Below, piece by piece: positions 5,488 to 23,330 of a DNA stretch of 64,000 bases. A model generated the notes under the pieces. The model was not told the origin of the DNA and did no database searches. It saw nothing but the letters and a program-made list of their open reading frames with translations. The stretch comes from Blautia sp. Lineage in GTDB: Bacteria; Bacillota; Clostridia; Lachnospirales; Lachnospiraceae. The DNA lies in assembly GCA_021772055.1 (NCBI GenBank), contig JAETNR010000016.1, positions 1 through 64,000 on the forward strand, written 5' to 3'. Both the position numbers and the translations under genes were made by a program. Position 1 is the first letter of the stretch. Each line of letters starts with the position of its first letter.

Positions 5488-5521
5488 GCCGCCTGCAAAG
5501 CCGAAGAAGACTGCGGGCGGC
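5488..5521 (+). other. Intercistronic stem-loop between binding-protein and permease genes
   Basis: GCCGCCTGCA (5488-5497) pairs with TGCGGGCGGC (5512-5521): ten consecutive pairs with one G-U. There is no T-run, so it is not a classic terminator. A weaker hairpin (GCCCG...CGGGC, about 5355-5380) directly follows the binding-protein stop. In malEFG-like operons such structures protect the 5' message from 3' decay and lower permease expression relative to the binding protein; that role is inferred. Confidence 0.6.
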
Positions 5522-5539
5522 AGAAAGAGGAGGTGTGTA

Positions 5540-7428: not shown

Positions 7429-8469
7429 CTATTTTTTCACTTCCGGAGTGTTCAAAGGTGCAGCAGTACTCTGCCGCTCTATGATCTCATATGGGAAAAG
7501 AACCTTAATATGTTTCTCATGTCCGCCTTCTATCCGGTCAATGAGTATCTTGGCTGCCATTCGTCCCATTTCCTCAAGAGGAATATGTACGGTTGTCAAC
7601 ATAGGCGTTAAGTACTGCGCCATGTCAATATCATCGATGCTGGCAAGGGATACGTCCCTGGGAATGTTCAGGCCGTGCTCCTGGATGGCCCTCATGGCTC
7701 CGATTGCAGTAAGGTCGTCTGCGCAGAAAAAAGCAGTAGCATCACAGTGGCTGTCCAGAAGGCGGCATGCGCCTTTATAGCCTTCTTCTGTGGATTGAGT
7801 GATATCGGCAATATATTTTTCCTCCACCGGGATTCCGGCATTGCTTAAAGCAGCGCAATAACCAAGATAACGATTTTCATTTACTGTTTCGCCTATATAG
7901 GCGATTTTTTTATGCCCCTGATTCAGAAGATAGGTGACAACATCGTAGCTGATCTGCTCTCCGTCACAGATGATCTGGTCGTATTTGGCGTCCGGATTGT
8001 TCAATCCTGTGTAGACTACATATTGAAAATGCTGTTTTAAAAATTTCAGCAGCGGTTTGCCGCAGCGCCCCAGAACTGCAATTCCGTCCACTTCATTGGT
8101 TGCAATCATCTGCAGGGTAACGGGATCATCAATATCAAAAGCAGAAAAAGTATATTTCAGCACATAGTTATGGCGGAACGCTTCCCTTTCAATGTTCCTG
8201 GCCAGAGTTGCGAAAAAATAGTCGGATTCTCCGTCCGGGACACGGGCAAACAGGCAGGCAATGGAATGGAGAGGCTCCGCAGAAGAAGGAACGGTTGATT
8301 CCCCGGGGGATTTTGATGAATTCTCTGGGATATAATTAGTCCGCTTGACGATTTCCCAGATGCGTTCCTGAACCTCTTTGCTTGCAGAACTTTTTGCGCT
8401 TTTATGAATGACGCGGGATACGGTAGAAATCGAGACTCCGGCTTCCGCTGCAATTTCTTTCAGCGTCAT
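7429..8469 (-). CDS. LacI-family regulator, divergent to the pfk-like/ABC/aldolase operon
   Basis: A 346-residue LacI/GalR regulator. The N-terminus MTLKEIAAEAGVSISTVSRV is a standard HTH; the sensor domain contains VDGIAVLGRCG and a C-terminal TPMLTTVHIPLEEMGRMAAK block. The start at 8469 is set by AAGGAGAG upstream; a longer reading from 8514 lacks a ribosome site. It is a clear paralogue of the regulator at 15706-16761 (shared MTLKEIA, EVQERIW, SVASIDD-type blocks), and both sit divergently beside operons of one apparent pathway. AACGTTTG sites in both promoter regions are the likely shared operators. The effector is unknown; a sugar phosphate or the imported substrate is plausible. Confidence 0.88.
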   Translation of the reverse strand: MTLKEIAAEAGVSISTVSRVIHKSAKSSASKEVQERIWEIVKRTNYIPENSSKSPGESTVPSSAEPLHSIACLFARVPDGESDYFFATLARNIEREAFRHNYVLKYTFSAFDIDDPVTLQMIATNEVDGIAVLGRCGKPLLKFLKQHFQYVVYTGLNNPDAKYDQIICDGEQISYDVVTYLLNQGHKKIAYIGETVNENRYLGYCAALSNAGIPVEEKYIADITQSTEEGYKGACRLLDSHCDATAFFCADDLTAIGAMRAIQEHGLNIPRDVSLASIDDIDMAQYLTPMLTTVHIPLEEMGRMAAKILIDRIEGGHEKHIKVLFPYEIIERQSTAAPLNTPEVKK

Positions 8470-8595
8470 ATAAAACTCTCCTTTCTTGGGATCCCAATTT
8501 AGATATGAGATCATACTATAAAGTTCATTGATTCAAGTATATCTGATTTTTTGCCAAAAATATAGATAGAACTTGCGAAAAGTAAAAAAATAATA

Positions 8596-8769
8596 GCCAA
8601 ACGTTTGCTCATCCGCCAGGGGACTTTTCAGTGGAAAATGAGTGTGCCGATGGCAGGATATATATGGAAAATGTACAAAAATGGCATGTGCAGATTATAC
8701 AAAATATATAGATAACGTTTGGGTTAATTTGACTTTTAATTTGACAAAAATATGTTAAGATTAAGATAC
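8596..8769 (+). promoter_or_regulatory. Divergent control region: two AACGTTTG operators and promoter
   Basis: The 385 bp between the divergent starts (8470-8854) holds a palindromic LacI-type site (AAACGTTT, 8599-8606, in GCCAAACGTTTGCT) and a second AACGTTTG at 8714-8721. Just downstream are TTGACT (8729-8734), 16 bp, TATGTT (8751-8756), or alternatively TTGACA (8741-8746) with a weak TAAGAT. The same AACGTTTG core occurs at 16843-16850 before the nag-like operon. Operator assignment rests on pattern and position. Confidence 0.6.
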
Positions 8770-8854
8770 AAAGTGAAATTAAACAAAACAAATGAAGAAA
8801 AACACGGGGATTATTAAAAGATGCACAAATAATTGCAGAAAGGAAAGTTGGAAC

Positions 8855-10021
8855 ATGTCACAGAATGTATTAGTAGTACATGGAGGCGGGCCCACAGCAG
8901 TCATCAATGCATCTCTTTATGGGGTGATTGAAGAGGCGAAGAGAAATCCGGAGGTGGGAAAAGTGTACGGAGCAATTGGCGGAACGGGCGCAATTTTTTC
9001 CGAAACTTTTTTGGATCTGACCTCTTTTGAAGAGGAAAAATTAAAACTTCTTTTACATACACCGGCTTCTGCTATTGGCTCTTCCAGATATCCTTTGTAT
9101 GAAAAGGACTACGAGAAAATGGCGGATATCTTTCGCAAATATGATATAAAATATGTTCTTCTCAATGGCGGAAACGGGACGATGGATGCATGCGGACATA
9201 TTTATGATGTTTGCAGAGATTTGGATATCAGGGTAGTAGGAATTCCTAAAACCATAGACAATGACATTGCAATGACGGATCATTCTCCGGGATATGGCAG
9301 TGCGGCAAGATTTATTGCTGCGGCTGCACAGGAAGTAGGAGAGGATGTAAAATCTCTTCCGATTCATGTGTGCATTATGGAGGCAATGGGAAGAAATGCG
9401 GGATGGATTACTGCTGCATCCGCACTGGCAAGAAGAAAGCAGGGAGATGCGCCGCATCTGATTTATCTGCCGGAGAGAAATTTTAATGAGGATGAGTTTC
9501 TGGAGGATGTATCCAGGCTTCAGAAAGAACATGGGGGAATTGTGGTAATGGTCAGTGAGGGCCTTCATGATGCGAATGGAGAGTCCATAGTTCCGCCCAT
9601 TTTTAAAACAGACAGGGCTGTTTATTATGGAGATGTAAGCGCCCATCTGGCGAACCTTGTGGTTAGAAAACTGGGAATCAAAGCGAGAAGTGAAAAGCCC
9701 GGATTATGCGGAAGAGCTTCTATAGCCCTTCAATCCCCGGTGGACAGAGAGGAGGCCAGGCTGGCAGGGGTACAGGCCCTTAGAAGTGCAGTGGATGGAT
9801 CCAGCGGGGTTATGGTAGGATTTGAACGTATCCCGGGCAGCTGCTACCAGGCAGATACAAAGCTGGTACCTATTAAAGAGGTAATGCTGTATGAGCGAAA
9901 GATGCCGGACAGCTTTATCAATAACAGAGGCAACGATGTAACACAGGAATTTGTGGAATGGTGCAGGCCGCTGATCGGAGGTGACCTTCCGGAATTTCTG
10001 AATTTCAAGGATTATGTTTAA
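8855..10021 (+). CDS. Phosphofructokinase-family enzyme, phosphoryl donor uncertain
   Basis: A 388-residue PFK-fold protein that would phosphorylate a ketose (or related sugar) phosphate. Seen: N-terminal GGGPTAVINASLYGV glycine loop, GGNGTMD where ATP-PFKs have GGDGS, PKTIDNDI with the catalytic Asp pair, and MGRNAGW. Lys in PKTIDND is the pyrophosphate-type residue, but the gatekeeper Gly in GGNG is ATP-type, and Asn replaces the usual Mg-binding Asp, so the donor and even the substrate are open. ATG 8855 is preferred (AGAAAGGAAAG before it) over 8792. It is the first gene of a seven-gene operon with a TIM homologue and an aldolase, so a ketose-phosphate kinase feeding an aldolase is the simplest role. 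Confidence 0.85.
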   Translation: MSQNVLVVHGGGPTAVINASLYGVIEEAKRNPEVGKVYGAIGGTGAIFSETFLDLTSFEEEKLKLLLHTPASAIGSSRYPLYEKDYEKMADIFRKYDIKYVLLNGGNGTMDACGHIYDVCRDLDIRVVGIPKTIDNDIAMTDHSPGYGSAARFIAAAAQEVGEDVKSLPIHVCIMEAMGRNAGWITAASALARRKQGDAPHLIYLPERNFNEDEFLEDVSRLQKEHGGIVVMVSEGLHDANGESIVPPIFKTDRAVYYGDVSAHLANLVVRKLGIKARSEKPGLCGRASIALQSPVDREEARLAGVQALRSAVDGSSGVMVGFERIPGSCYQADTKLVPIKEVMLYERKMPDSFINNRGNDVTQEFVEWCRPLIGGDLPEFLNFKDYV

Positions 10022-10038
10022 GAAGGGAGGGGAAAGGA

Positions 10039-10878
10039 ATGAAACATATTTATCTTAATCTGAAAAGATTTGATATTCCTTCAGAGTTTGGCGGTGTCAA
10101 CAGAATCGCCCCTGTTGATCGTTGGGGAAGATACATTGTAGAAAATATTCAGGAAGAGCTGGCTTCTTATGACAGCTCCAGGGTGGATTTTACCCTGTTC
10201 TTTCCGGAACTTCATCTGCTGGATGCCGTAAGGAGCTGTAAGGAAGGAAGCAGGCTGAAAATTGGAAGCCAAGGTGTTCATAGACAGGATACGTCAATTG
10301 GAGGAAACTTTGGAGCTTTTACATGCGGACGTACTGCCAATGCTATGAAAGCGGCGGGCTGCAAAGCGGTACTGATCGGACACTGTGAAGAAAGAAAAGA
10401 TAAGTTGGAGATCATGGAGGCAGCAGGTACAGGTGATACGGATGCAGTAAACCGTATTTTAAATCAGGAAGTAAAAGCAGCGATTGCTGCAGGGCTGGAG
10501 GTTCTCTACTGCATTGGAGAAAATGCTGAGGAACAGGATCGCTGGCAGGAGGTTCTGGAAAAACAGATCCGTATAGGACTGGATGGAGCAGATTTTCATA
10601 AGGTGACGATTGCTTATGAACCTATCTGGGCCATCGGCCCGGGTAAAATCCCGCCGGATGCACCGTATATTCAGAAAATTGCAGCTTATGTAAAGAAAAT
10701 AAGCGGCGGTCTGGATGTGGTATATGGAGGCGGCCTGAAAAAAGACAATGCGAAAATGCTTGCATCCATCCGGGAAATCGACGGCGGATTGATTGCGCTT
10801 ACCAGATTTTCGGGAGAAATCGGCTACTATCCGGATGAATATCTGGAAATTATTCGTACTTACATGGAAGAGTCATAA
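10039..10878 (+). CDS. Divergent triosephosphate isomerase family protein
   Basis: A 279-residue TIM-barrel protein of the triosephosphate isomerase family, interconverting aldose/ketose phosphates. The catalytic Lys (NLKRF), His (IGHCEER, near residue 115) and Glu (AYEPIWAIG, near 193) are all present, with the phosphate-binding YGGGL near the end. It departs from true TIM: Trp of NWK is Leu, Ser of GHSERR is Cys, the first Arg of that motif is Glu, and the protein is about 25 residues longer than usual. TIM paralogues that act on other substrates such as tetrulose phosphates are known, so the substrate should not be assumed to be glyceraldehyde 3-phosphate. GGGAGGGGAAAG precedes the start, 17 bp after the PFK-like gene. 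Confidence 0.82.
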   Translation: MKHIYLNLKRFDIPSEFGGVNRIAPVDRWGRYIVENIQEELASYDSSRVDFTLFFPELHLLDAVRSCKEGSRLKIGSQGVHRQDTSIGGNFGAFTCGRTANAMKAAGCKAVLIGHCEERKDKLEIMEAAGTGDTDAVNRILNQEVKAAIAAGLEVLYCIGENAEEQDRWQEVLEKQIRIGLDGADFHKVTIAYEPIWAIGPGKIPPDAPYIQKIAAYVKKISGGLDVVYGGGLKKDNAKMLASIREIDGGLIALTRFSGEIGYYPDEYLEIIRTYMEES

Positions 10879-10914
10879 GAAATAGGATTGTGTTCTCGTG
10901 AAAGGAGAGTAAAT

Positions 10915-11697
10915 ATGGAAAAAAAGAAAAAAAGTGTACTGCAGGCCATTCCGGGATGGGCATGGGTATTGATTTCCCTTGCAGCAGCGCTTCTGCTGTG
11001 GTTTGCATTATCAGTGAATCCGAAAACAGCACGAAGTTTCCCGTTTATTCCGTCTATTATTGACGCTGCCAAGAAGATGATCGAGAATGGTGCATTGGCA
11101 CAGGATTTCTGTAGCTCTATGATCTCAATTCTGGCAGGATTTGCACTTGGGTTTGTTACTGCAGTTCCGGTAGCATTTCTCATGGCATGGTATCTGCCTG
11201 TCAGAGGGGTACTGGAACCATGGATCCAGTTCATTCGTAATATTCCGCCGCTGGCATATGTACCGCTGGTGGTTATTACTGCAGGTGTAGGAAGAAAACC
11301 TCAGATCATTGTTATCTGGATCGCAACCTTCCTGATCATGACAGTTACTATTTATCAGGGTGTAAGGAACATTGACAACACGCTTGTGAAGGCCGCAAAA
11401 GTTCTGGGCGCAAAGGACAGGGATATTTTTATTAAAGTTATTTTTCCTGCAACCACTCCGTTTATTTTAACAGCCGTTCGTCTTGGTATTTCCGTTGCGT
11501 TAACAACGCTGATCGCCGCAGAAACCACAGGGGCTACTGCAGGCCTTGGAATGAGAATCCGCTCTCTGGCGAACAGCTTTGAGACTGCCGGAATGCTGAT
11601 GTATATCATTATTATTGGTATTATCGGCCTGGTTATGGAAAAAATTATTAAGTTCTTGGAAGGAAGGTTAACAGGATGGCAGGAAAAGAGAGAGTAA
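10915..11697 (+). CDS. ABC permease, nitrate/sulfonate/taurine type (SsuC-like)
   Basis: A 260-residue membrane protein of the BPD_transp_1 family. It has an N-terminal helix (WAWVLISLAAALLLWFAL), a further group of helices and the cytoplasmic EAA-type segment (KAAKVLGAKDRDIF) seen in SsuC/TauC. Start ATG 10915 follows AAAGGAGAG; an upstream in-frame ATG at 10888 lacks a site. It overlaps the ATPase gene by 22 bp. This importer class usually handles aliphatic sulfonates, nitrate, bicarbonate or thiamine precursors; its place within a sugar-phosphate operon is unusual. Confidence 0.88.
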   Translation: MEKKKKSVLQAIPGWAWVLISLAAALLLWFALSVNPKTARSFPFIPSIIDAAKKMIENGALAQDFCSSMISILAGFALGFVTAVPVAFLMAWYLPVRGVLEPWIQFIRNIPPLAYVPLVVITAGVGRKPQIIVIWIATFLIMTVTIYQGVRNIDNTLVKAAKVLGAKDRDIFIKVIFPATTPFILTAVRLGISVALTTLIAAETTGATAGLGMRIRSLANSFETAGMLMYIIIIGIIGLVMEKIIKFLEGRLTGWQEKRE

Positions 11698-12467
11698 CAA
11701 AGCTTAAGATCGACAATGTGAAAAAGGTTTTTCATACACGGAATGGTGAAATGACAGCCTTAAACGGAGTAAATCTGGACATTAAAGAGAACGAGTTTAT
11801 TTGTGTAGTAGGCCCCTCCGGATGCGGAAAATCCACATTATTGAATATTATTGCAGGACTGGACACCCCAAGCAGCGGCGCAGTATATATTGATGACAAA
11901 AAAATTGAAGGAACCGGAACAGAAAGAGGCGTGGTTTTCCAGCAATATGCCTTGTTCCCATGGCTGACAGTCCTGAAAAACGTAATGTTTGGCTTGAAGT
12001 TACAGGGAAAAAGCAATGAAGAAGCAAAAGAAATTGCTATGAAATACATAAAAATGGTACAGCTGGAGGATTTCGTAAATCATTATCCAAAGGAGCTGTC
12101 CGGCGGTATGAAGCAGAGAGTGGCCATTGCAAGAGCTTATGCAGTAAAACCGGAAGTGCTGCTGATGGACGAGCCTTTTGGAGCCCTGGACGCGCAGACA
12201 AGGACACAGCTTCAGACAGAACTTTTGAAAACCTGGGAAAGTGAAAGAAAGACATGTTTCTTTATTACCCATGACGTAGATGAAGCAATTATTCTTGCCC
12301 AGAGAGTCATTATTATGAGTGCAAGGCCGGGACGTATTAAAGAAATCGTAGACATAGATATTCCTTATCCACGTGACCAGGAAACAAAGATGAGTCCGCG
12401 ATTTATGGAACTTAAGAATCATATCTGGAGCCAGGTATATCAGGAGTATCTGGAAGTAAGAAAATAA
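11676..12467 (+). CDS. ABC transporter ATPase, nitrate/sulfonate/taurine type (SsuB-like)
   Basis: A 263-residue ABC ATPase with Walker A GPSGCGKST near residue 47, the Q-loop in VVFQQYALFPWLTV, signature LSGGMKQR, Walker B VLLMDEPFGALD and switch His FITHDVDEA. The FPWLTV after the Q-loop and the SARPGRI segment are typical of the SsuB/TauB group. The start lies inside the permease gene (22 bp overlap) with GGAAGG upstream, implying coupled translation. It energises the adjacent permease. Confidence 0.92.
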   Translation: MAGKERVTKLKIDNVKKVFHTRNGEMTALNGVNLDIKENEFICVVGPSGCGKSTLLNIIAGLDTPSSGAVYIDDKKIEGTGTERGVVFQQYALFPWLTVLKNVMFGLKLQGKSNEEAKEIAMKYIKMVQLEDFVNHYPKELSGGMKQRVAIARAYAVKPEVLLMDEPFGALDAQTRTQLQTELLKTWESERKTCFFITHDVDEAIILAQRVIIMSARPGRIKEIVDIDIPYPRDQETKMSPRFMELKNHIWSQVYQEYLEVRK

Positions 12468-12554
12468 TATTTTGACCGTCCGGAAGAAGGAGAGCGGCTC
12501 AGAACAGAGTGTAACAAGATGACACAGAATTTATGGATCAAATGAAAGGAAAGG

Positions 12555-13568
12555 ATGAAGAAAATGAAAAAAACATGGAAAAAGTTAGCAGCACTTGCGA
12601 TGACAGCAGCTATGACTGTATGCGGCGCATCGATTCCCGTAAGTGCAGAAGAGGAAGCGGAAAAAGTAACAATAAACGTAGCTTATATGCCTGATTATGC
12701 AAGCCTGAACGGTCTGATCTCCGCCATCCAGCTGGGATACTTTGAAGAGGAAAACCTGGATGTACAGCTTACGGAATTTGCAGATGGTCCTACCATTATC
12801 CAGGCAATGGAGTCAGGATCTATTGATGTGGGTTATGTCGGACAGGGAGCCCATAAACTCTGCATCAACGGAAAAGCATCAATCTTTGCCCTTGCACATG
12901 TATCCAACGGTGACGCTGTGATCGGAAGCAAAGAAAAAGGAACGGATACCATTGAGGGATTAAAAGGAAAAACCATTGCCTATTCATCAGGAACATCCAG
13001 CGAAGATATTCTGACGAAAACGCTGACAAAAGCAGGACTGACCATGGATGATATTACAGCTATGGATATGGATGCAACAAACATTGTAACTGCTATGCTT
13101 TCCGGAAGTGTTGATGCCTGCGCCACATGGGTACCGAACTCTTTGAAGATCCTTCAGGAAATGGGAGATGACGGTATTCAGCTTACGGACAACAAGACAT
13201 TTATTGACCAGACCGTATCTCTTGCAAGCTGGATTGCAATGCCTGCATATGCAGAGGAAAACCATGATCTTCTTGTGAGATTTGCAAGAGCCCTTTATAA
13301 AGGATTTGATTATCGTGCAGATCACAGCCATGACGATGAGGTGTGCGGATGGATCGCAGATAAGATTAAACTTGATAAGCAGACGCTCCTGGATCAGGTA
13401 AATGTTGCTGACTGGACTACAAGCGAATTTGTAAGAGATTATGCGGATGAAGTGAAGGGCTATTATGAACTTCAGCAGACCTCATTTGTGGAGAACGGAA
13501 GCTGCGAGGAAACACCGGTAGAGAACTATGTTCTCTTTGACATCATGGAAGAAGCCTGCAAAGAATGA
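12555..13568 (+). CDS. ABC substrate-binding protein, SsuA/TauA/NMT1-like
   Basis: A 337-residue secreted binding protein. A signal peptide ends at about PVSA/EEE; the mature part shows the SsuA/NMT1 pattern INVAYMPDYAS, IQLGYFEEENLDV, AMESGSIDVGYVG, LKGKTIAYSSGTSSEDIL and DACATWVP. The actual start may be ATG 12564, which sits nine bases after AAAGGAAAGG. A Cys occurs in the signal region (MTVCGAS) but in no acceptable lipobox. It presumably captures the substrate of the pathway; aliphatic sulfonates are the commonest ligands of the family, but family membership does not fix the ligand. Confidence 0.88.
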   Translation: MKKMKKTWKKLAALAMTAAMTVCGASIPVSAEEEAEKVTINVAYMPDYASLNGLISAIQLGYFEEENLDVQLTEFADGPTIIQAMESGSIDVGYVGQGAHKLCINGKASIFALAHVSNGDAVIGSKEKGTDTIEGLKGKTIAYSSGTSSEDILTKTLTKAGLTMDDITAMDMDATNIVTAMLSGSVDACATWVPNSLKILQEMGDDGIQLTDNKTFIDQTVSLASWIAMPAYAEENHDLLVRFARALYKGFDYRADHSHDDEVCGWIADKIKLDKQTLLDQVNVADWTTSEFVRDYADEVKGYYELQQTSFVENGSCEETPVENYVLFDIMEEACKE

Positions 13569-13653
13569 GAATGATCGGAGATTGCACAGGCAGAAATGTC
13601 TGTGTAATCTTTAAAGAGAAACCTGCATAAGGACAGGAGAAAGAAGTGAAAAG

Positions 13654-14505
13654 ATGTTAGTTACAAGCAAAGAGATGTTGGAAAAAGCCCGCAGAGAACA
13701 TTATGCAGTACCTGCCATGAACACCCAGGGAGGAAATTACGACATTATCTGGGCAATCTGCAGGGCTGCGGAAGAAATGCACTCCCCTGCCATTCTTGCC
13801 CATTATGTGACGACCGGTGCGTACTCCGGAGATGACTGGTTTGCGGAGGTCTGCAAATGGTGTGCCAAAAAAGTAAGTGTACCCATCGCGATCCATCTGG
13901 ATCATGGAGACAGTTTTGAGATCTGTATGAAGTCCCTGAAAAATGGATTTACCTCTTTAATGATCGACGGATCCACAAAACCGATAGAGGAAAATGCAGC
14001 ACTGACAAATGAGGTAATAAAAACAGCCAGGTGTTTCGGCGTCCCTGTAGAGGCAGAAATCGGGGAACTTTTGAGACTGGACAGCGACGGAGCTGCTCAG
14101 GAGAATAAAAATGTGGCAGATCCCAGGCAGGTTCGCCGCTTTCTGGAACTTTGCCATCCGGATTCCCTTGCAATTGGAATCGGAAATGCCCACGGATATT
14201 ACAGGGGAGAGCCGGATATCAGATTGGAGGTTCTGGAAGAAGCAGGGAAGTTTACGGATATTCCCTTTGTCCTTCATGGATGTACAGGAATGAAAGAAGA
14301 TATTATCAAAAAAGCGATTCAGCTTGGTGTGGCAAAGATTAATTTTGGCACGGAAATTCGCTATAAATATGTAGAACACTATCAGGAAGCATTAAGGACG
14401 AATCATCAGGGGCATTCCTGGAAGCTGTCACAGTATGCAAATGATGCCCTGACAGAGGACATTAAAAAGATCATCCGTCTGGCAGGTTCTGAAGGAAAAG
14501 CTTAA
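13654..14505 (+). CDS. Class II fructose/tagatose-bisphosphate-type aldolase (short form)
   Basis: A 283-residue zinc aldolase cleaving a ketose (bis)phosphate to dihydroxyacetone phosphate and an aldehyde. Zinc and catalytic motifs are visible: HLDHGDSFE near residue 80, EAEIGE near 131, GIGNAHGYY near 178 and LHGCTG near 208 (usually HGGSG or HGASG). The length matches GatY/KbaY rather than long FBA. It lies between the transporter and the SIS gene with AGGACAGGAGAAAG upstream. With the SIS and PFK-like genes this resembles the end of the galactosamine/tagatose-6-phosphate route, though the exact substrate is inferred. Confidence 0.88.
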   Translation: MLVTSKEMLEKARREHYAVPAMNTQGGNYDIIWAICRAAEEMHSPAILAHYVTTGAYSGDDWFAEVCKWCAKKVSVPIAIHLDHGDSFEICMKSLKNGFTSLMIDGSTKPIEENAALTNEVIKTARCFGVPVEAEIGELLRLDSDGAAQENKNVADPRQVRRFLELCHPDSLAIGIGNAHGYYRGEPDIRLEVLEEAGKFTDIPFVLHGCTGMKEDIIKKAIQLGVAKINFGTEIRYKYVEHYQEALRTNHQGHSWKLSQYANDALTEDIKKIIRLAGSEGKA

Positions 14506-14554
14506 CAATGAATGAGACCGGAGATATCCGTTTGACATAAGGAGGAAATGAAGA

Positions 14555-15613: not shown

Positions 15614-15627
15614 CAGAGGATAATAAA

Positions 15628-15672
15628 AACAGGGCTTATGCAGCGGCAAAATCCGGTTGTATAAGCCCTGTT
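15628..15672. terminator. Bidirectional hairpin between convergent SIS and LacI genes
   Basis: AACAGGGCTTAT (15628-15639) pairs perfectly with ATAAGCCCTGTT (15661-15672). The run of A on its left (15625-15629) gives a U-run for minus-strand transcripts, so it best terminates the lacI gene, and may also stop the plus-strand operon. Confidence 0.7.
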
Positions 15673-15705
15673 GTGCTAAGAGCGATGATAAAAGCACAGG
15701 TAAAA

Positions 15706-16761
15706 TCATGATGTGAGATCAGCAAAGGTTCTGCGGTTTCTGCTTAGTTTGCAGCAGCTGTCTCTCTTGGCAATGTAAAAGGGAAGTATGGTCCGCATGG
15801 GAAGCCGGTGTCCCCCGTTAATACGGTCGATCAGGATCTTGGCTGTGATTCTGCCCAGATCCTCCAGAGGAATATGGACAGATGTGAGCATGGGAGACAG
15901 GTATTGGGCTGTTTCGATATCATCCACGCTGATGACAGAAATATCCTGGGGAATCCGGAAATTCTTTTCTTTCAGGGCATGGATTACACCAATGGCGGTG
16001 GTGTCATTTGCACAGAAGATGGCGGAAATATCAGCTTTATTGTGCATTAACGTATTTGCTCCCTTGTAGCCGCCGTCAGCAGAAAGCCGCACATTAGCCG
16101 CGTTTTTCTGAAAAAAGGGGAGTCCAAGTTTGGCAAGTGCTTCCTTGTAACCGCTGAAGCGCACCTCATTGTTCTGTTCTCCCACATAGCCGATCCTGGT
16201 ATGACCAAGCTCCGCCAGATAGGAGATGGCAGTATAGGAGATATCGCTTCCGTCGCATACAACCTGGTCATACTGATTCCCCATGGGATTCAGGCCGGTA
16301 TAGATGACATTTTTGTAGTTTTGCGTAAAAAAGTTCAGAAGTTTTCGCTCGTAACGCCCAAGAATTACCACGCCATCCACAGGAAACTGTGCAAGCTGCC
16401 TGGAAATGTCAGGATTGGCAATATCCATTGCAGTAAAGGAATGGCGGATGAAGTAGTTGCTCTTGAATGCCTCCTGTTCAATGGATTTGGCAATTTGTGA
16501 AAAAAAAGGATCGGAAACTGCAGAATTGCTTCTTGCGTAAATGCAGGCAATTGATTTGGGTACCGCGTCCTGAATTTGGGTATTTTTGCCAAACTTCAGA
16601 CTACGGGCTGTGGCATTTGGGGTATATCCGCTTTTTCGTACGATATCCCATATGCGTTCCTGGACTTCAGGACTTGCAGCCTTTGTATTTTTCTGGTTTA
16701 TTACTCTGGAAACCGTGGAAATAGAGACATTTGCTTCTTTGGCGATTTCTTTCAGCGTCAT
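15706..16761 (-). CDS. LacI-family regulator, divergent to the nag-like/LarA operon
   Basis: A 351-residue LacI/GalR regulator: HTH MTLKEIAKEANVSISTVSRV, sensor-domain blocks VDGVVILGRYER and SPMLTSVHIPLEDLGRITAK. It is closely similar to the regulator at 7429-8469 throughout and probably arose by duplication; each copy faces an operon of the same apparent pathway. The start at 16761 is supported by GCGAGG upstream. The shared AACGTTTG sites in both control regions suggest cross-recognition or a common ancestral operator. Effector unknown. Confidence 0.88.
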   Translation of the reverse strand: MTLKEIAKEANVSISTVSRVINQKNTKAASPEVQERIWDIVRKSGYTPNATARSLKFGKNTQIQDAVPKSIACIYARSNSAVSDPFFSQIAKSIEQEAFKSNYFIRHSFTAMDIANPDISRQLAQFPVDGVVILGRYERKLLNFFTQNYKNVIYTGLNPMGNQYDQVVCDGSDISYTAISYLAELGHTRIGYVGEQNNEVRFSGYKEALAKLGLPFFQKNAANVRLSADGGYKGANTLMHNKADISAIFCANDTTAIGVIHALKEKNFRIPQDISVISVDDIETAQYLSPMLTSVHIPLEDLGRITAKILIDRINGGHRLPMRTILPFYIAKRDSCCKLSRNRRTFADLTS

Positions 16762-16841
16762 AAAAAAAACCTCGCAATTCTTAAAAAATCTTTATAGACA
16801 ATTATACAGGAATTCCTGGAAAATTACAATAAAGATTAGGA

Positions 16842-16911
16842 AAACGTTTGCGTGATTTTAGGGCAAATTTGCGTTGATTTGGTTGAACAGAAACAGGGAA
16901 TCAACTATAAT
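16842..16911 (+). promoter_or_regulatory. Operators and strong promoter of the nag-like operon
   Basis: AAACGTTT (16842-16849, within AACGTTTGCG) and a perfect palindrome GCAAATTTGC (16863-16872) lie upstream of TTGAAC (16883-16888), a 17 bp spacer and consensus TATAAT (16906-16911). The operators sit upstream of the -35, so they may act on the divergent lacI promoter or through looping rather than by blocking this polymerase site. Confidence 0.72.
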
Positions 16912-16962
16912 GAAATTAGTAAAATTTAAGACAGTTTATAAAATCAGGGAGGGAAAAATGGT

Positions 16963-17784
16963 ATGGGACATAGCTATTACGGCTATACAAAGGAAGAACT
17001 GTTGGGGAATTCGCCTAAGCTTCCGGTGATCGTGATGGAGGACAATGAAGCGGTATTTCGTTCTATTGCAGAGGAAATGGCTGCAGAGATTAGGAAACAT
17101 AACGAAAAAGGAGAGAAGACAGTATTTATTTGTCCGGTAGGTCCTGTGGGGCAGTATCCTTTCTTTGTGAATCTGGTGAATGAACAGAACATCAGTCTTA
17201 AGAATGTATGGTTTATTAATATGGATGAGTATCTGGATGACGAGAAGCAGTGGATTTCCAAAGAACATCCCTTAAGCTTTCGAGGTTTTATGCAGCGTAC
17301 CGTCTATGATCGGATCCGCCCGGAGCTTGTCATGCCGGAAAACCAGAGAGTATTTCCGGACCCCGGACATCCGGAATACGTTCCTGAACTGATTGAAAAG
17401 CTTGGAGGCGTGGATATTTGTTTTGGGGGAATCGGGATTAACGGGCACGTGGCGTTCAATGAAGCAGACCCTGCTCTTACCTGCGAAGAGTTTCTGGCAC
17501 AAAAGACCCGTGTACTGGAGATTACAAAAGAAACCAGAACGGCTAATGCCATTGGTGATTTTAACGGTGCGTTAGAAGATATGCCTCGTTACTGTGTGAC
17601 GATCGGCATTTATGAGATCGCCCATGCAAGGAAAATCCGTCTGGGCTGTTTTCGGAACTGGCATCGTGCAGTGGTGCGGAGAACCGCATATGGAGAGGCC
17701 GCGTCTGATTTTCCGGTATCGCTGCTTACCTCACATCCGGATATCAACCTGAAGATCACAGAGTTTGTGGCAGCATTAAATTGA
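16963..17784 (+). CDS. nagB: Glucosamine-6-phosphate deaminase-family protein (NagB-like)
   Basis: A 273-residue NagB/6-phosphogluconolactonase-fold protein. Motifs: NMDEYL with the catalytic Asp near residue 86, GGIGINGHVAFNEADP with the active-site His near 163, and a C-terminal SLLTSHPDINLKITE. NagB converts glucosamine 6-phosphate to fructose 6-phosphate and ammonia. The start ATG 16963 follows AGGGAGGG; a nearer out-of-frame ATG at 16958 is discounted. It is first in the second operon, followed at once by the NagA-like gene. The pathway may use a different amino-sugar phosphate, because the segment after GIYEI (HARKIRLGCFRNWHRAVV) is not the commonest NagB form. Confidence 0.82.
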   Translation: MGHSYYGYTKEELLGNSPKLPVIVMEDNEAVFRSIAEEMAAEIRKHNEKGEKTVFICPVGPVGQYPFFVNLVNEQNISLKNVWFINMDEYLDDEKQWISKEHPLSFRGFMQRTVYDRIRPELVMPENQRVFPDPGHPEYVPELIEKLGGVDICFGGIGINGHVAFNEADPALTCEEFLAQKTRVLEITKETRTANAIGDFNGALEDMPRYCVTIGIYEIAHARKIRLGCFRNWHRAVVRRTAYGEAASDFPVSLLTSHPDINLKITEFVAALN

Positions 17785-17819
17785 GGAATCTGTCACTGTA
17801 CAGAGAAAGAAGGAAGAGC

Positions 17820-18971
17820 ATGAGCGTTCGGATTATCAATGGGAAAATATATAAAAAAGGGGCCTTTACAGAGGAAGACCTGCTCCTGGAAAATGGAAAG
17901 ATCATTTCGCCTGAAAGTGTGCATACAGAGGAAGTAATTTATGATGCAGGGGGAAATTATGTAGTACCTGGCTTTATTGATGTACACACACATGGAGGAG
18001 CCGGTATAGACGTAAATGCAGCAGACCGGAAGGGGTTTGAAAAAATCGGACATTTTTTTGCCAAACAGGGAACCACATCCTGGCTGTGTTCTATTTTGAC
18101 TGATACGAAAGAGCAGACTCTTAAAACAATCAAAGAAGCAGTGAAGCATCAAAAAGCACAGAAGAACGGGCATGAGAACTGTGCGGATCTTCTGGGAATC
18201 CATCTGGAAGGCCCCTTCCTGGCACCGGAATATAAAGGGGCAATGCCGGAGTACCTGCTGATTTCCCCGGACGTGGAGCTTCTGAAAGAATACCAGCAGG
18301 CAGCGGAAGGGACTATTCGCTATATGACTGTTTCACCGGAAGTGCCGGGTGTGCCGGAAGCAATAGGAGAAATGACAAAGCTTGGCATCAAAGCGGCCAT
18401 TGGCCATTCCGGCGCAGATTATGATACTTCATGGCGCTGTATTAAGGAAGGTGCGGTATCCGCAACCCATACCTTTAATGCAATGAAACTGCTCCATCAG
18501 CATTATCCTGCGATCATGGGAGCAGTTCTGGAGTCAGAGATTTACTGCGAGGCAATTTGTGACGGACGTCATCTTCACCCGGGAACAGTTCGTTTTCTTT
18601 TGAAAATGAAGGGAATGGATAAAGTGATTGCCATAACGGACTCCATTATGGCAGCGGGGCTTCCGGACGGAGAATATATGCTGGGAGTAAATGAAGTTGT
18701 GGTAAAAGACGGGGATGCGAAACTGAAATACGGAGATTCCAGAGCAGGAAGTACCCTTACAACAGGGCAGGCCCTGAAAAATCTGATTTCCTTTACAGGA
18801 AAGTCTCTGGAAGAGATTTTACCGCTTTTCACCAGTAATCCCGCCAGAATGCTGGGAGCCGAAGAACGGATCGGAAGTCTGGAAACAGGAAAAGACGCAG
18901 ATGTGGTAATTCTGGATCCGGCATATTCTGTTGTGGATACATTTGTAAAAGGAAGAAAAATACAATCATGA
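17820..18971 (+). CDS. nagA: N-acetylglucosamine-6-phosphate deacetylase (NagA-like)
   Basis: A 383-residue amidohydrolase removing acetyl from an N-acetyl amino-sugar phosphate. Metal and catalytic motifs in order: VHTHGGAGID near residue 58, HLEGPFLAPEYKGAM near 128, IGHSGADY near 195, ATHTFNAM near 216 and ITDSIMAAGLPDG with the catalytic Asp near 271. The ATG at 17820 with GAAGGAAGAGC upstream is preferred to a TTG at 17781 that overlaps the nagB stop. It pairs with NagB to give a ketose phosphate for the aldolases. GalNAc-6-phosphate (AgaA-type activity) is an equally possible substrate. Confidence 0.87.
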   Translation: MSVRIINGKIYKKGAFTEEDLLLENGKIISPESVHTEEVIYDAGGNYVVPGFIDVHTHGGAGIDVNAADRKGFEKIGHFFAKQGTTSWLCSILTDTKEQTLKTIKEAVKHQKAQKNGHENCADLLGIHLEGPFLAPEYKGAMPEYLLISPDVELLKEYQQAAEGTIRYMTVSPEVPGVPEAIGEMTKLGIKAAIGHSGADYDTSWRCIKEGAVSATHTFNAMKLLHQHYPAIMGAVLESEIYCEAICDGRHLHPGTVRFLLKMKGMDKVIAITDSIMAAGLPDGEYMLGVNEVVVKDGDAKLKYGDSRAGSTLTTGQALKNLISFTGKSLEEILPLFTSNPARMLGAEERIGSLETGKDADVVILDPAYSVVDTFVKGRKIQS

Positions 18972-18996
18972 TTGATGATACCAGGGAGGAGATCAT

Positions 18997-20172
18997 ATGC
19001 CTTTAATACCGTTAAGACCATTACTGGAAACTGTAGATAAGTATCATTTTGCCCAGGGAGCTTTTAATGTAAATGCAGCAGCTCAGGCAAAAGCAGCAAT
19101 CGAAGTTCATGAAATGTTCCGTTCAGCAGCAATCCTTCAGGGCGCAGATCTGGCAAACGGATTTATGGGAGGAAGAGCGGACTTCTTAAATGCTACACTG
19201 GAAGATAAGAAGATCGGCGCCAAAAATATTGCGGACGCAGTAAAAAAATATGCGGAGAAGTCTTCCATTCCGGTAGTACTTCATCTGGATCATGGCAAAA
19301 ATTTTGATTCCTGCAAAGCAGCGATTGAGGGCGGATATACCTCTGTTATGATTGATGGATCCAGCCTTCCTTTTGAGGAAAATGTGGAGCTTACCCGTGA
19401 AGTGGTGAAATATGCCCATGAAAGAGGTGTTTCTGTAGAGGGAGAGCTGGGGGTTCTTGCAGGTGTGGAAGACCATGTATTTTCCAGCACGTCTACTTAT
19501 ACAAATCCGTTAAAAGCGGTGGAATTTTTTAAAAAAACAGGCTGTGACGCACTGGCGATTTCCTATGGAACCATGCATGGTGCTTCCAAAGGCAGGAATG
19601 TAAAACTGAGAAAAGAGATTGCTGTTGCCATTAAGGAATGCCTGATGCATGAAGGGATTTTCGGCGTACTGGTATCTCATGGCTCCTCTACAGTACCGAA
19701 ATATATTGTTGACGAAATCAATGCACTTGGGGGAAATATACAGAATGCTTACGGAATTTCCATTGACGAACTGAAAGCAGCAATTCCGTGCGGTATCGGC
19801 AAGATTAACGTGGATACAGATATTCGTCTTGCAGTTACCAGAAATATGAAGGAATTTTTTGCAAAGCATCCGGAGAAAAGAGAGAGCCGATCCGTCGGAG
19901 GCGTGTACCGCCTTCTGGAAGCGAAAAAAGAGCAGTTTGATCCCAGGGTATTCCTGCCCCCCATTATGGATACGGTGATGTACGGGACGATTCCAGATGA
20001 AGATACAGCATCGTTGATGACAGTGATTGAAAATGGCGTAAAAGAAGCAATCGGCACTCTGATCGTGGAATTTGGCTCTTACGGAAAAGCACCGCTGGTA
20101 GAAATGGCAAGCCTGGAGGAAATGGCGGAACGTTATCGCAAGGGTCCCGGATCAGAGAGGATGGGCAGATGA
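18997..20172 (+). CDS. Class II ketose-bisphosphate aldolase (long form)
   Basis: A 391-residue zinc-dependent aldolase. Motifs: HLDHGKNFDSC near residue 95, SVEGELGVLAG near 147, SYGTMHGASKG near 190 and LVSHGSSTVP near 227, followed by an NVDTDIR block and about 90 C-terminal residues beyond the GatY-type length. It is a second class II aldolase of the same system, different from the 283-residue enzyme at 13654 in length and in the sequence around the last metal ligand (SHGSST versus LHGCTG), which suggests two different substrates or a two-step carbon-chain cleavage. GGGAGGAG precedes the start; it overlaps the next gene by ATGA. Confidence 0.88.
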   Translation: MPLIPLRPLLETVDKYHFAQGAFNVNAAAQAKAAIEVHEMFRSAAILQGADLANGFMGGRADFLNATLEDKKIGAKNIADAVKKYAEKSSIPVVLHLDHGKNFDSCKAAIEGGYTSVMIDGSSLPFEENVELTREVVKYAHERGVSVEGELGVLAGVEDHVFSSTSTYTNPLKAVEFFKKTGCDALAISYGTMHGASKGRNVKLRKEIAVAIKECLMHEGIFGVLVSHGSSTVPKYIVDEINALGGNIQNAYGISIDELKAAIPCGIGKINVDTDIRLAVTRNMKEFFAKHPEKRESRSVGGVYRLLEAKKEQFDPRVFLPPIMDTVMYGTIPDEDTASLMTVIENGVKEAIGTLIVEFGSYGKAPLVEMASLEEMAERYRKGPGSERMGR

Positions 20173-20885
20173 CTTTTGTACTGACTGCATTTGTTGCCAT
20201 AGCGGGGAGTTTTATACAGAGCTGCAGCGGCTTTGGGTATGCGATCATCTGTATGGCTTTGTGGCCCTTGTTTATGCCTTTTTATACGGCATCCATATTA
20301 GAGGCTATTGCAGCATTTTTTATGGTGGTTTATATTGCAGTGAAATTCCGGAAAGCTATTGACTGGAAACTCCTTCTTCCTGCTGTGCTTATGGCTGCGG
20401 TTACCAGCTTCCTGGGGGTGAATACCCTGATGGCACTGGATGAAGCTGTTTTATCAAAAATCATGGGAACGGTGCTTCTTGTACTGGCTGTGTATTTTAT
20501 CTTCTTTATGAATAAGGTGCATATGAGGGCGGGAATTATTTCCGGCCTGGCAGCAGGGGCAGTCAGCGGTTTCTGCGGAGGGCTGTTTAATATAGGAGGC
20601 CCTCCCATGGTGGCATATTTTCTCTCTGTAACAAAGGATAAGGAAAAATACAATGCCACTCTTCAGATGTTTTTTACGGTAAATACGGCATGTATTTTTT
20701 TGATCCATGTTTTTCAGGGACATGTATCTGCGTCTATGGTGCCGCTGATCGCGGCTGCCTTAGCGGGAACAGCAGCGGGGACTGCAGCAGGCATGGCAGT
20801 GTTTCGAAAACTGACGATGGAGGGAATCCGGAAAGCCGTATATATTTTTATGGTATGTGCCGGAATGTATCTTCTGTTGTCATGA
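20169..20885 (+). CDS. TauE/SafE-family membrane exporter
   Basis: A 238-residue membrane protein with about seven hydrophobic helices. The two internal family signatures are present: SCSGFGYAIICMALWPLF in the first half and FCGGLFNIGGPPMVAYFL in the second. TauE/SafE proteins export sulfite, sulfoacetate and other small organic anions released during sulfonate breakdown. Translation is coupled to the aldolase by ATGA. Together with the SsuABC-like importer it hints that the pathway releases a sulfur-containing or organic anion; that is inference. Confidence 0.85.
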   Translation: MTFVLTAFVAIAGSFIQSCSGFGYAIICMALWPLFMPFYTASILEAIAAFFMVVYIAVKFRKAIDWKLLLPAVLMAAVTSFLGVNTLMALDEAVLSKIMGTVLLVLAVYFIFFMNKVHMRAGIISGLAAGAVSGFCGGLFNIGGPPMVAYFLSVTKDKEKYNATLQMFFTVNTACIFLIHVFQGHVSASMVPLIAAALAGTAAGTAAGMAVFRKLTMEGIRKAVYIFMVCAGMYLLLS

Positions 20886-20944
20886 GAAATCATTCCGGAA
20901 GAGAACAGATACACCGGAAATAACAGAAAGCAGAGGAGAAGAAT

Positions 20945-21781
20945 ATGGGACAGACACTTTATTTGGAGTGCTGCAGCGGTATCAGCGGAGATATGACTGT
21001 GGCAGCACTGCTGGATCTGGGGGCTGATCCGGCAGTTTTGGAAAAAGGAATTGCAAGTCTTGGAATTGATGGATATAAACTTTGTATCTCCAGAGTGAAA
21101 AAGTCTGGAATAGATGCCTGTGATTTTGCAGTGCTTCTGGATCCGGAGCATGAGAATCACGATCATGATATGGAGTATCTGCATGGCTTCGGCCATGAAC
21201 ATGCACAGGAAAGTACACAGGAACATACGCATGAACATGCACACGAGCATATACAGGAACATACCCACAGAGGGCTTTGGGAGATTCTTGGAATTATTCA
21301 AAGTGCTGATATAACGGAAAAAGCCAAGGAAACGGCAGAACGGATTTTTCGGATTCTTGCTGAGGCGGAGGCAAAGGCTCATGGGACAGAAATAGAACAG
21401 GTACATTTTCATGAAGTGGGAGCCGTAGATTCCATTGTGGATATCGTAGGCGCAGCGATCTGCTTTGATAATCTCCAGGCAGACAGGATTATCGTAAAAG
21501 AACTGTATGAAGGACAGGGATGTATCCGATGCCAGCACGGAATCATTCCGGTGCCTGTACCTGCGGTTATAAATATTGTACAGCAGCAGAAGCTTTCTCT
21601 TCACATTACAAATGTACAGGGAGAACTTGTTACCCCTACAGGTGCGGCAATCGCGGCAGCAGTGCGTACTTCGGACAAGCTTCCGGACACCTTTACGGTA
21701 AAGAAGGTCGGGATCGGGGCTGGAAAGAGAGATTACGGGACTCCGGGATACCTGCGTGTCATGCTTATTTCAGAAGAATAA
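20945..21781 (+). CDS. larC: LarC N-terminal half (LarC1), nickel-pincer cofactor biosynthesis
   Basis: A 278-residue protein matching the first part of LarC, which inserts nickel into the pincer cofactor of LarA-type enzymes. Seen: LYLECCSGISGDM at the N-terminus, a histidine-rich nickel-binding stretch (residues ~62-108, many H-E-H and H-D-H), VHFHEVGAVDSIVDIVG, PVPVPAV and TPTGAAI. It stops after the GIGAGKRDYGTPGYLRVML segment, where full-length LarC (about 400 aa, with a CTP-binding C-terminal part) would continue. Only 43 bp lie between this stop and the LarA-like operon partner's leader, so LarC2 is not encoded here in any frame. Confidence 0.85.
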   Translation: MGQTLYLECCSGISGDMTVAALLDLGADPAVLEKGIASLGIDGYKLCISRVKKSGIDACDFAVLLDPEHENHDHDMEYLHGFGHEHAQESTQEHTHEHAHEHIQEHTHRGLWEILGIIQSADITEKAKETAERIFRILAEAEAKAHGTEIEQVHFHEVGAVDSIVDIVGAAICFDNLQADRIIVKELYEGQGCIRCQHGIIPVPVPAVINIVQQQKLSLHITNVQGELVTPTGAAIAAAVRTSDKLPDTFTVKKVGIGAGKRDYGTPGYLRVMLISEE

Positions 21782-21851
21782 AAAGAGATTTGGCGGAATC
21801 TGTAATGAGAATAAAAAATAAATAATGATATATAAGGAAGGGAGATTCACG

Positions 21852-23330
21852 ATGAAAATTGATTTTGAGTATGGACAGGGAACAATGGCAGCAGAGCTGC
21901 CGGATAGTACGGATATTTTCATTCCGGGTGAAACTGTAAAGGATCCGGCTTATATTCCGGAAGATCAGCTGGAAGCAGCTTATCTGGAAAGCCTGGCAAA
22001 TCCTATCGGAATGCCGACTTTGACAGAGCTGGCAGGAAAGGGAAAGACGGTTACGATTATTGTACCGGATCGTGTAAAAGGCGGTGAACAGGCCACCAGC
22101 CACAGAAAATTAAGCATTAAATATATATTGAAAGAGCTGTATGCAGCAGGTGTTGAGAAAAAGGATATCCTTTTTATTATTTCCAACGGGCTTCATCCCA
22201 GAAGCAAAGAATCTGATGCGAAAGCTATTTTCGGGGAAGAACTGTTTCATGAATTCTGGCATACAGGACAGATCATCAGCCACGACAGTGAAGATCAGGA
22301 ACATATGATATATCTGGGAACCACAAGAAGAGGCGATCCTGTTTACATGAATAAATATGTGTTTGAAAGTGATATTCCGATTCTGATCGGACATGTACAG
22401 GGGAACCCATACGGCGGATATTCAGGCGGATATAAACATAGTGCAACCGGTATTACAAACTGGAAATGCATTGCAAGCCATCATGTGCCGGCCGTGATGC
22501 ACAGAGCTGATTTTACCCCTGTAAACGGCGGAAGTCTCATGCGCAATAAATTCGATGAAATCAGTATGCATATGGAAGAGAAGATGGGACATCCCTTTTT
22601 CTGCTGTGATGCAGTACTGGATACACAGTCCAGACAGATCGCCATCTATTCCGGTTATGCGAAGGAAATGATGCCGGTAAGCTGGAAGCTTGCAGATAAG
22701 AGAACTTATGTACATTGGGCTGAAAAAAAATATGATGTTCTTGTTTTCGGAATGCCCCAGAAGTTCCATTATGGTGACGGAATGGGAACCAATCCCATTA
22801 TGATGATGCAGGCGCTAAGTGCACAGGTGCTTCGCTTTAAGAGAGTGATGAGTGACAACTGTGTCATTATCTGTTCATCCATCTGCAACGGATATTTCCA
22901 TGATGAATTATGGCCGTATCTGCGGGAATTGTACCATGCGTTCCAGCATGATTATATGAATACCCTGCCTGATATGAACCGGCTGGGTGAATATTTTGCA
23001 ACGAATGAGGAATATATCCGCAAGTACCGTTTTACTAACGCCTTCCATCCGTTCCATGGATTTTCCATGATGTCCTGCGGCCATATTGCAGAAATGAACA
23101 CCAGTGCAATTTATATCGTAGGCGCGCAGGAACCGGGATATGCAAGAGGCATGGGATTAAAAACGCGGGCTACATTTGAAGAAGCACTGGAAGATGCGAA
23201 GAAGAAATATGTCGGCAGGGAACCGAACATTCTGGCATTGCCTATGACCTTCAAGAAAGCGGCAGTACATCTCTGTATGAAAAATCCGGCAGAGGATTGT
23301 ATGGATGAATATGGACATTGCCATATGTAA
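21852..23330 (+). CDS. LarA-family nickel-pincer racemase/epimerase
   Basis: A 492-residue protein of the lactate-racemase family, which racemises or epimerises alpha-hydroxy acids using a nickel-pincer nucleotide. The IIVPDRVKG segment, SNGLHPRSK (His matching the first catalytic His), GYSGGYKHSATGIT (Lys matching the pincer-attached Lys) and IASHHVPAVM fit LarA, but the loop around the pincer Lys differs from the common GGRKSILPG form and the protein is 60-70 residues longer than classical LarA. The ATG at 21852 follows AAGGAAGGGAGA. As last gene of the operon, coupled with LarC1, it probably acts on an acidic intermediate of this pathway such as a sugar acid, rather than on lactate. Confidence 0.82.
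   Translation: MKIDFEYGQGTMAAELPDSTDIFIPGETVKDPAYIPEDQLEAAYLESLANPIGMPTLTELAGKGKTVTIIVPDRVKGGEQATSHRKLSIKYILKELYAAGVEKKDILFIISNGLHPRSKESDAKAIFGEELFHEFWHTGQIISHDSEDQEHMIYLGTTRRGDPVYMNKYVFESDIPILIGHVQGNPYGGYSGGYKHSATGITNWKCIASHHVPAVMHRADFTPVNGGSLMRNKFDEISMHMEEKMGHPFFCCDAVLDTQSRQIAIYSGYAKEMMPVSWKLADKRTYVHWAEKKYDVLVFGMPQKFHYGDGMGTNPIMMMQALSAQVLRFKRVMSDNCVIICSSICNGYFHDELWPYLRELYHAFQHDYMNTLPDMNRLGEYFATNEEYIRKYRFTNAFHPFHGFSMMSCGHIAEMNTSAIYIVGAQEPGYARGMGLKTRATFEEALEDAKKKYVGREPNILALPMTFKKAAVHLCMKNPAEDCMDEYGHCHM

Follow-up and report, generated by a model that had tools for sequence, protein, structure and literature searches.

A linked two-operon system in a Blautia genome and a possible parallel glycolysis for 6-sulfated N-acetylhexosamines

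Known systems and the two operons

In the sulfoglycolytic Embden–Meyerhof–Parnas pathway termed sulfo-EMP2 (SqvD, SqiK, SqiA), a kinase of PF00365 and an aldolase of PF01116 act on a ketohexose with sulfur at C6 and yield dihydroxyacetone phosphate and a C3 sulfur aldehyde (PMC9594981). The window, a stretch of 64,000 nt from Blautia sp. (contig JAETNR010000016.1, positions 1 to 64,000), contains at 7429-23330 a two-operon module that is compared here with this pathway. As in sulfo-EMP2, a PfkA-family (PF00365) kinase is linked to a class II aldolase (PF01116). Unlike in sulfo-EMP2, the front end consists of NagA with NagB or SIS (PGI-like or ManA-like proteins in relatives) instead of SqvD, and the 15 genes include no sulfolactaldehyde dehydrogenase or reductase, a TIM-like protein and LarA being present instead. 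By analogy, the system seems to work like sulfo-EMP2, but starting from hexosamines and lacking a sulfolactaldehyde dehydrogenase or reductase.

The module shares a deacetylase, a deaminase or isomerase, a kinase and a class II aldolase with the Nag/Aga catabolism of amino sugars. It differs from that route in its ABC-type import, with neither a C6 sugar kinase nor a phosphotransferase system (PTS) among the 15 genes, and in the replacement of the phosphate ligands of these enzymes. A further point of comparison is the LarA_Bw/LarA_Sp subfamily, the structures of which were solved in 2025 with the reaction left unnamed, and for which gene neighbours of the same kind were reported (PMC12611868). 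The LarA of the window is very close to LarA_Bw, with the same His and Asn residues and similar neighbours; the pairing with the TIM-like protein, the exchange of front ends and the residue pattern are added here.

On the basis of sequence comparison, we tentatively favour, at a little less than an even chance, one catabolic pathway: a parallel EMP route for 6-O-sulfated N-acetylglucosamine (GlcNAc) or N-acetylgalactosamine (GalNAc) from host glycans. The 6-O-sulfates of both sugars are common parts of such glycans.

All 15 genes are intact in an open reading frame (ORF) check, and their identity and order agree with the preliminary description of this DNA. They form two operons, each transcribed away from one LacI gene: PFK, TIM-like, SsuC, SsuB, SsuA, short aldolase and SIS in operon 1, and NagB, NagA, long aldolase, TauE, LarC1 and LarA in operon 2. 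Families were assigned by NCBIfam and Pfam. With preferred start codons, the gaps within the operons are -22 to 87 bases. By eye, ATG 8855 fits PFK better than the ORF opening at 8792, and ATG 17820 fits NagA better than the opening at 17781 (TTG). The LarA ORF opens at 21825, and ATG 21852 corresponds to the first residue of 9q2u. The features are as follows, with their basis in brackets.

7429..8514, minus strand: LacI-type repressor 1; start probably the Met of MTLKEIA, 8469 (NCBIfam/Pfam)
8599..8608, plus strand: putative operator AAACGTTTGC in the LacI1/PFK gap (shared 10-mer)
8855..10021, plus strand: PFK family kinase, PRK14072-like, proposed 1-kinase of a ketohexose-6-X (family, residues)
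10039..10878, plus strand: TIM-like isomerase, loop-8 GGAS changed to ALTR (family, residue comparison)
10888..11697, plus strand: SsuC/TauC-like ABC permease (NCBIfam/Pfam)
11676..12467, plus strand: SsuB-like ABC ATPase (NCBIfam/Pfam families)
12555..13568, plus strand: SsuA/NMT1-like substrate-binding protein (NCBIfam/Pfam)
13654..14505, plus strand: short class II aldolase, presumably of a tagatose-type branch (family, aldolase comparison)
14555..15613, plus strand: SIS-domain isomerase/deaminase, GlmD/AgaS-like, loop SRSGET of relatives changed to TRKSYT
15706..16761, minus strand: LacI-type repressor 2 (NCBIfam/Pfam, LacI comparison)
16842..16851, plus strand: putative operator AAACGTTTGC in the LacI2/NagB gap (shared 10-mer)
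16963..17784, plus strand: NagB-like deaminase with shortened phosphate loop (family, residues)
17820..18971, plus strand: NagA-like deacetylase, conserved Arg changed to His (family, residues)
18997..20172, plus strand: long class II aldolase, proposed ketose-1-phosphate-6-X aldolase (family)
20169..20885, plus strand: predicted TauE/SafE exporter, the genome's only PF01925 match (Pfam)
20945..21781, plus strand: LarC1-only protein, N-terminal part of the nickel insertion family (NCBIfam/Pfam)
21852..23330, plus strand: LarA-like enzyme of the His-to-Asn subfamily, very close to LarA_Bw (PDB 9q3j)
23523..23547, plus strand: terminator-like hairpin after LarA (sequence)

Linkage in relatives and the shared 10-mer

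The two operons encode one linked system, as had been supposed: their genes are linked in relatives, and they share a 10-mer. Searching with the long aldolase gave 93 relatives, the best 80 of which were kept as loci, 58 of them 18 kb or longer; gene counts in loci follow BLAST thresholds, and those of TauE are lower bounds. Among the named loci, those nearest to the window belong to Blautia (L001 and L002, long aldolase 92%). The 58 long loci contain PFK in 46, TIM-like in 46, LarA in 49, NagB in 49, NagA in 37, SsuB in 42, PGI-like in 27 and TauE in at least 16. One or more of PFK, TIM-like, LarA, NagB, NagA and SsuB were found in 57 of them, and none in L038. SsuB was always accompanied by NagB (42/42), and it stands without NagB in the shorter, cut loci L027 and L073. 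At least three of PFK, TIM, SsuC, SsuB and SsuA occur with at least two of NagB, NagA and LarA in 38 of the 58; the preliminary description had named operons that never co-occur as grounds for giving up its view, and the genes of both are thus found together. Since the same gene set recurs in many genera, the arrangement is more than chance adjacency.

A second set, independent of the long aldolase, was obtained with LarA alone from 397 genomes of the family (E 1e-100). LarA of the window type was present in 31, the own genome included. The 30 regions chosen by LarA were about 20 kb each (two were shorter), and 6 share exact sequence with the first set. TIM-like was found in all 30, PFK in 22, NagB in 18, NagA in 17, the long aldolase in 15, SsuB in 13 (13/13 with NagB), TauE in at least 12 and PGI-like in 5. 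In a sample of the phylum (E 1e-60), 8 of 398 genomes, again counting the own one, have LarA; TIM-like lies beside it in 5 of the 7 others, while G390 and G141 are without the module TIM and have a YihU-like protein next to LarA. According to Pfam, a TauE gene comes immediately after LarA in L094 and one gene further on in L096 and L097; BLAST had missed all three.

The two LacI genes, described earlier as paralogs, are 49% identical over 336 residues. Exact matches of AAACGTTTGC in the window are two, at 8599 and 16842, and both are in the gaps from which a LacI gene and an operon diverge. In shuffled sequence the mean was 0.18, with two or more copies in 4 of 100 shuffles. Of the 36 LacI-divergent gaps of relatives, 24 contain AAACGTTT and 12 do not; among 3641 windows of 400 bp taken from these loci, 84 contain it. 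Both repressors might share one operator. A pair of a histidine kinase and a response regulator (clusters c13 and c12) also recurs in module loci (L011, L021, L025, L036, L056, L058, L080 and others), often just after SsuA and with or without a LacI gene.

Phosphate-site residues, LarA and the proposed pathway

Different front ends stand on a common trunk: NagA with NagB, PGI-like (34 of 80 loci), SIS (4 of 80) and ManA-like (2 of 80 at the BLAST threshold, 6 in a looser cluster). GH3 (5 of 80 loci) and a ROK protein are also among the variants. The short and long aldolases are 33% identical over 217 residues. In the two-aldolase scheme proposed earlier, the short aldolase and SIS, given the rarity of the latter, are an accessory branch. 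In L095, LarA and TIM-like occur with an SDR, an SGL lactonase, two DHDPS proteins and TctA/TctC pairs, and in L098 an IlvD/Edd dehydratase, DHDPS, TctA and TctC are beside LarA. These clusters, outside the window, are like the sulfoglycolytic Entner–Doudoroff (ED) pathway in having an SDR with SGL lactonase or IlvD/Edd, and unlike it in having a DHDPS-family aldolase, not PF03328 (PMC12421959), and TctA/TctC transport. The C4-C6 fragment is the sole intermediate common to EMP-type and ED-type cleavage, and TIM-like and LarA are therefore placed at the C3 step. We infer that the substrate of LarA is the C3 cleavage product or its TIM-like product.

Two observations concern the same relatives. 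The LarA/TIM-like cluster of L095 also encodes, at 5284-6726, a protein of the arylsulfotransferase family, a hint of sulfate-ester chemistry. Near the LarA/TIM-like/TauE group of L096 (13479-17020) are an aldehyde ferredoxin oxidoreductase and an aldehyde dehydrogenase, the latter scoring best, though below the cut-offs, with lactaldehyde dehydrogenase and SafD.

Residues of the module families were compared with E. coli references, and those of TIM, PFK and aldolase also with the genome's own paralogs. The compared positions in TIM, NagB, PGI, SIS and PFK are taken to be phosphate ligands; for NagA the roles are those described in the literature (PMC6016474). In all 66 TIM-like proteins, S212 is replaced by G and G233-G234 by A-L, and S236 is R in 61, K in 4 and Q in 1; the catalytic H95 and E167 are kept in all 66 and the N-x-K motif, by a simple pattern, in 61. 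The TIM-like protein is below the NCBI equivalog cut-offs (94.1 vs 293 bits; 71 vs 130.6). A housekeeping role for it was ruled out by the canonical TIM of the genome (contig C38), which retains GGAS. In NagB, G43 and T44 are deleted (58/58), R172 is G (54/58) and K208 is H within a conserved R-x-W-H-R (56/58, two gaps), with D72, H143 and E148 conserved in all 58. PGI-like proteins of relatives have A for S207 and N for T209 (both 34/34), and SIS has TRKSYT, in the window and in 4 of 4 loci, where archaeal relatives have SRSGET. No NCBIfam cut-off is reached by TIM-like, NagB or SIS.

In NagA, R227 is H in 44 of 45 (one gap) and the residue before it is Q in 43, with E131 and H195 kept in 45 and H216 and D273 in 44. 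Mutation of the invariant Arg abolishes the activity of Mycobacterium marinum NagA, and in the M. smegmatis enzyme the Arg just before the conserved one binds phosphate (PMC6016474). R162 of PFK is replaced by H (55 of 57) or F (2) and is K in two own paralogs; H249 is lost in the module and likewise in these two paralogs. Alignment did not resolve the C6 pocket of the long aldolase. As far as these alignments go, replacement of phosphate residues is clear in TIM-like, NagB, PGI-like and SIS and partial in NagA and PFK. The residues taking over include R, H, W, Q and K; 6-sulfo-GlcNAcases bind sulfate through residues of a similar kind, Q, W, R, N, C and Y (PMC11659886). Because the replacement is conserved, the C6 group, X in the list above, is probably an anion other than phosphate.

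The LarA of the window scores 1101 bits with LarA_Bw (9q3j), 824 bits with LarA_Sp (9q2u) and 133.7 bits with PF09861 (Lar_N); with the NCBIfam LarAH14/15/16 equivalog it scores 161.5 bits and does not reach the cut-off of 740. H124 and N194, the latter an Asn in place of the second catalytic His, are invariant in 66 of 66 module LarAs, and the protein, judged by these residues, belongs to the single-histidine (His-to-Asn) subfamily. The epimerisation of a hydroxy acid proposed in the preliminary description is not supported, in view of this Asn and of the absence of lactate racemisation in LarA_Sp, the Streptococcus member, which has been prepared in cofactor-loaded form (PMC12611868). A racemase needs bases on both faces, and an intramolecular hydride shift could use one; this means that a non-racemising reaction is favoured, which we speculate is on the C3-X product or its TIM-like product. 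A lactate racemase for N-acetylmuramate-derived lactate was rejected, since SIS is GlmD/AgaS-like and the second His is missing. The LarC of the operon is the LarC1 half only, followed at once by LarA; LarB and a full LarC are on contig C175 of the same genome, and LarE is on contig C192. A short LarC of 271-296 aa is seen in the Blautia loci L001-L003 and L005, and one of 250 aa in L063; the lengths are 428-525 aa in L064, L072, L074 and L077.

In the proposed route for 6-O-sulfated sugars, SsuABC would import the sugar whole, as a monosaccharide, and NagA would take acetate off the N-acetylhexosamine-6-X. Removal of ammonia by NagB (GlcN type) or SIS (GalN type) would lead to a ketose-6-X, which PFK would phosphorylate at C1. 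The long aldolase might then split the ketose-1-phosphate-6-X into dihydroxyacetone phosphate and glyceraldehyde-3-X, and the short aldolase might do the same for the tagatose form. Glyceraldehyde-3-X would be handled by the TIM-like enzyme and LarA, and a sulfur anion exported by TauE. As a guess, TIM-like might form an enediol with loss of X, or isomerise; equally speculatively, LarA might use hydride transfer to its nickel cofactor, for which one His is enough, to give a lactate-level product. The identity of X, each reaction and the direction of transport are what we infer.

Sulfur at C6 is suggested by the SsuABC and TauE types, the families confirming the sulfonate/sulfite-type importer and exporter described earlier, by TauE being unique in the genome and by the sulfo-EMP2 precedent. 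O-sulfate is preferred to sulfonate because NagA, NagB and SIS imply GlcNAc or GalNAc, and because mycobacterial NagA deacetylates GlcNAc-6-sulfate, with a Km 7-fold higher and GlcNAc itself not used (PMC6016474). That GlcNAc-6-sulfate is released, and not assimilated, by Bifidobacterium bifidum points the same way (PMC11186840). Of the substrate first proposed, an N-acetylated sugar with an acidic or sulfonated part whose hydroxy acid is epimerised by LarA, the anionic N-acetylhexosamine is retained as the best-fitting substrate and the epimerisation is given up.

Several findings weigh against 6-O-sulfated GlcNAc or GalNAc. L054, L069 and L070 have PGI-like and GH3, with NagA and NagB absent from the locus, and glucose-6-sulfate fits poorly there. 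NagA keeps N219, A220 and H251 (44/45, one gap) and PFK keeps R243 and R252 (57/57), which means that phosphate is not excluded by these two enzymes taken alone; both, like the PGI-like protein of L071, also pass NCBI cut-offs for phosphate enzymes. The conserved Arg of M. smegmatis NagA faces away from the ligand (PMC6016474). TauE was found by BLAST in at least 20 of 80 loci, besides the at least 12 of 30 LarA-chosen regions, the relatives of SsuA span several ligands, and two matches to PF00884 (sulfatase family) are present in the genome. NagB D141 is N (49) or T (9), and NagA H143 is M (45/45); relatives of solved structure from B. subtilis have N and Q at these sites, and nothing is therefore inferred from the two changes.

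If correct, the operon is a concrete candidate for the consumption of GlcNAc-6-sulfate in gut genera. The use of sulfated mucin sugars is usually tied to sulfatases. The locus likely narrows the substrate of an orphan LarA subfamily to the C3 product of hexose-6-X cleavage, and it is a likely setting for a nickel-cofactor enzyme with a solved structure and an unreported reaction. It seems rather unlikely, though of great consequence if true, that gut Firmicutes and Actinobacteria degrade 6-sulfated host amino sugars by a glycolysis that needs no sulfatase, in which the C3 sulfur aldehyde would be disposed of with no dehydrogenase: TIM-like would form the enediol, with expulsion or isomerisation, and the single-histidine LarA would carry out an intramolecular nickel-pincer hydride transfer instead of a racemisation. 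If so, the nickel-pincer cofactor would gain a new reaction class, and sulfoglycolysis-like pathways a new ending. No paper on GlcNAc-6-sulfate breakdown via sulfated ketose or triose intermediates was found among open-access titles and abstracts, and no link of LarA to sulfosugars is among the literature matches listed. In a term search of a January 2026 review of sulfoquinovose breakdown, LarA, racemase and triose never occur (PMC12890257).

Alternative readings and neighbouring genes

The close rival, which we consider rather unlikely, is that X is a C6-sulfonate and that the module is a new branch of sulfoglycolysis acting on sugars of the sulfoquinovose type, an N-acetylated (sulfoquinovosamine-like) one among them. 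The C3 product would be sulfolactaldehyde, which would pass to TIM-like and LarA, and TauE would export sulfite or a C3 sulfonate. The enzyme families are those of sulfo-EMP2 (PMC9594981), the SsuABC and TauE types are present, and L095 (SDR, SGL lactonase, two DHDPS) and L098 (IlvD/Edd, DHDPS) resemble sulfo-ED families. Sulfoquinovose is a natural candidate where PGI-like (34 of 80 loci) and GH3 variants occur, and 2 of the 8 LarA genomes, those without the module TIM, have the YihU-like protein beside LarA. However, this pair is equally close to GarR (33%, 31%) and to YihU (35%, 31%). No YihO-YihV match was found in the window (tblastn, E 1e-4; SqvB and SqvD were not searched), and Yih matches in the loci of relatives (E 1e-12, 40% coverage) are limited to transporters of the YihO/YihP type in two loci, a single GH31 and, in two genomes, the YihU-like proteins. 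We know of no natural C6-sulfonated GlcNAc, and a search of the open-access literature for names of this type yielded no sulfoquinovosamine paper. As a sulfoquinovosidase of relatives, the GH31 of L069 was rejected: it is 25% identical to YihQ and, in a weak pairwise alignment, lacks the residues that presumably bind the sulfonate.

A weaker rival, distinctly improbable, takes X as a carboxylate, with hexuronates or N-acetylhexosaminuronates being split. The C3 product would be tartronate semialdehyde, a 2-hydroxy acid, which TIM-like would turn to hydroxypyruvate for LarA to act on. Known LarA enzymes take 2-hydroxy acids (PMC11770544), and oxidised sugar-acid routes would also fit TctA, TctC, SDR, lactonase and DHDPS in L095 and TctA, TctC, DHDPS and IlvD/Edd in L098. 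The top score of the YihU-like protein of L099 is to tartronate semialdehyde reductase (194 bits, below the cut-off of 340.75), but the Ser-Gly-Gly motif, which we take to be the carboxylate grip of these reductases, is altered in L098 and L099. Furthermore, TauE recurs, although a product of this kind would not call for an exporter of the sulfite type, and LarA_Sp is not a lactate racemase (PMC12611868).

Ordinary catabolism of GlcNAc or GalNAc 6-phosphate by diverged paralogs is very improbable. The enzyme names match the textbook route, and the cut-offs passed by NagA, PFK and, for glucose-6-phosphate isomerase, the PGI-like protein of L071 agree with it, as do the two phosphate arginines of PFK. 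Against it are the lack of a C6 sugar kinase and a PTS noted above, the conserved replacement of the phosphate grips in NagB, TIM-like, PGI-like and SIS, and the fact that the genome encodes, outside the two operons, a canonical TIM, four more PFKs and seven more class II aldolases. That the operons are unrelated neighbours is hardly credible: the module is split in some loci, with parts about 7-10 kb apart in L030 and L042, and the recurrent linkage and the shared 10-mer speak against it.

The region directly upstream of LacI1 (2240-7269) encodes a sugar ABC importer and a protein that by eye resembles glycoside hydrolases of GH13; this gene group looks like a separate system. At 23764-24156, a 130-aa AAA/AbiEii-like protein is encoded, which family models match at its start and end only; it is perhaps an internally shortened ATPase.

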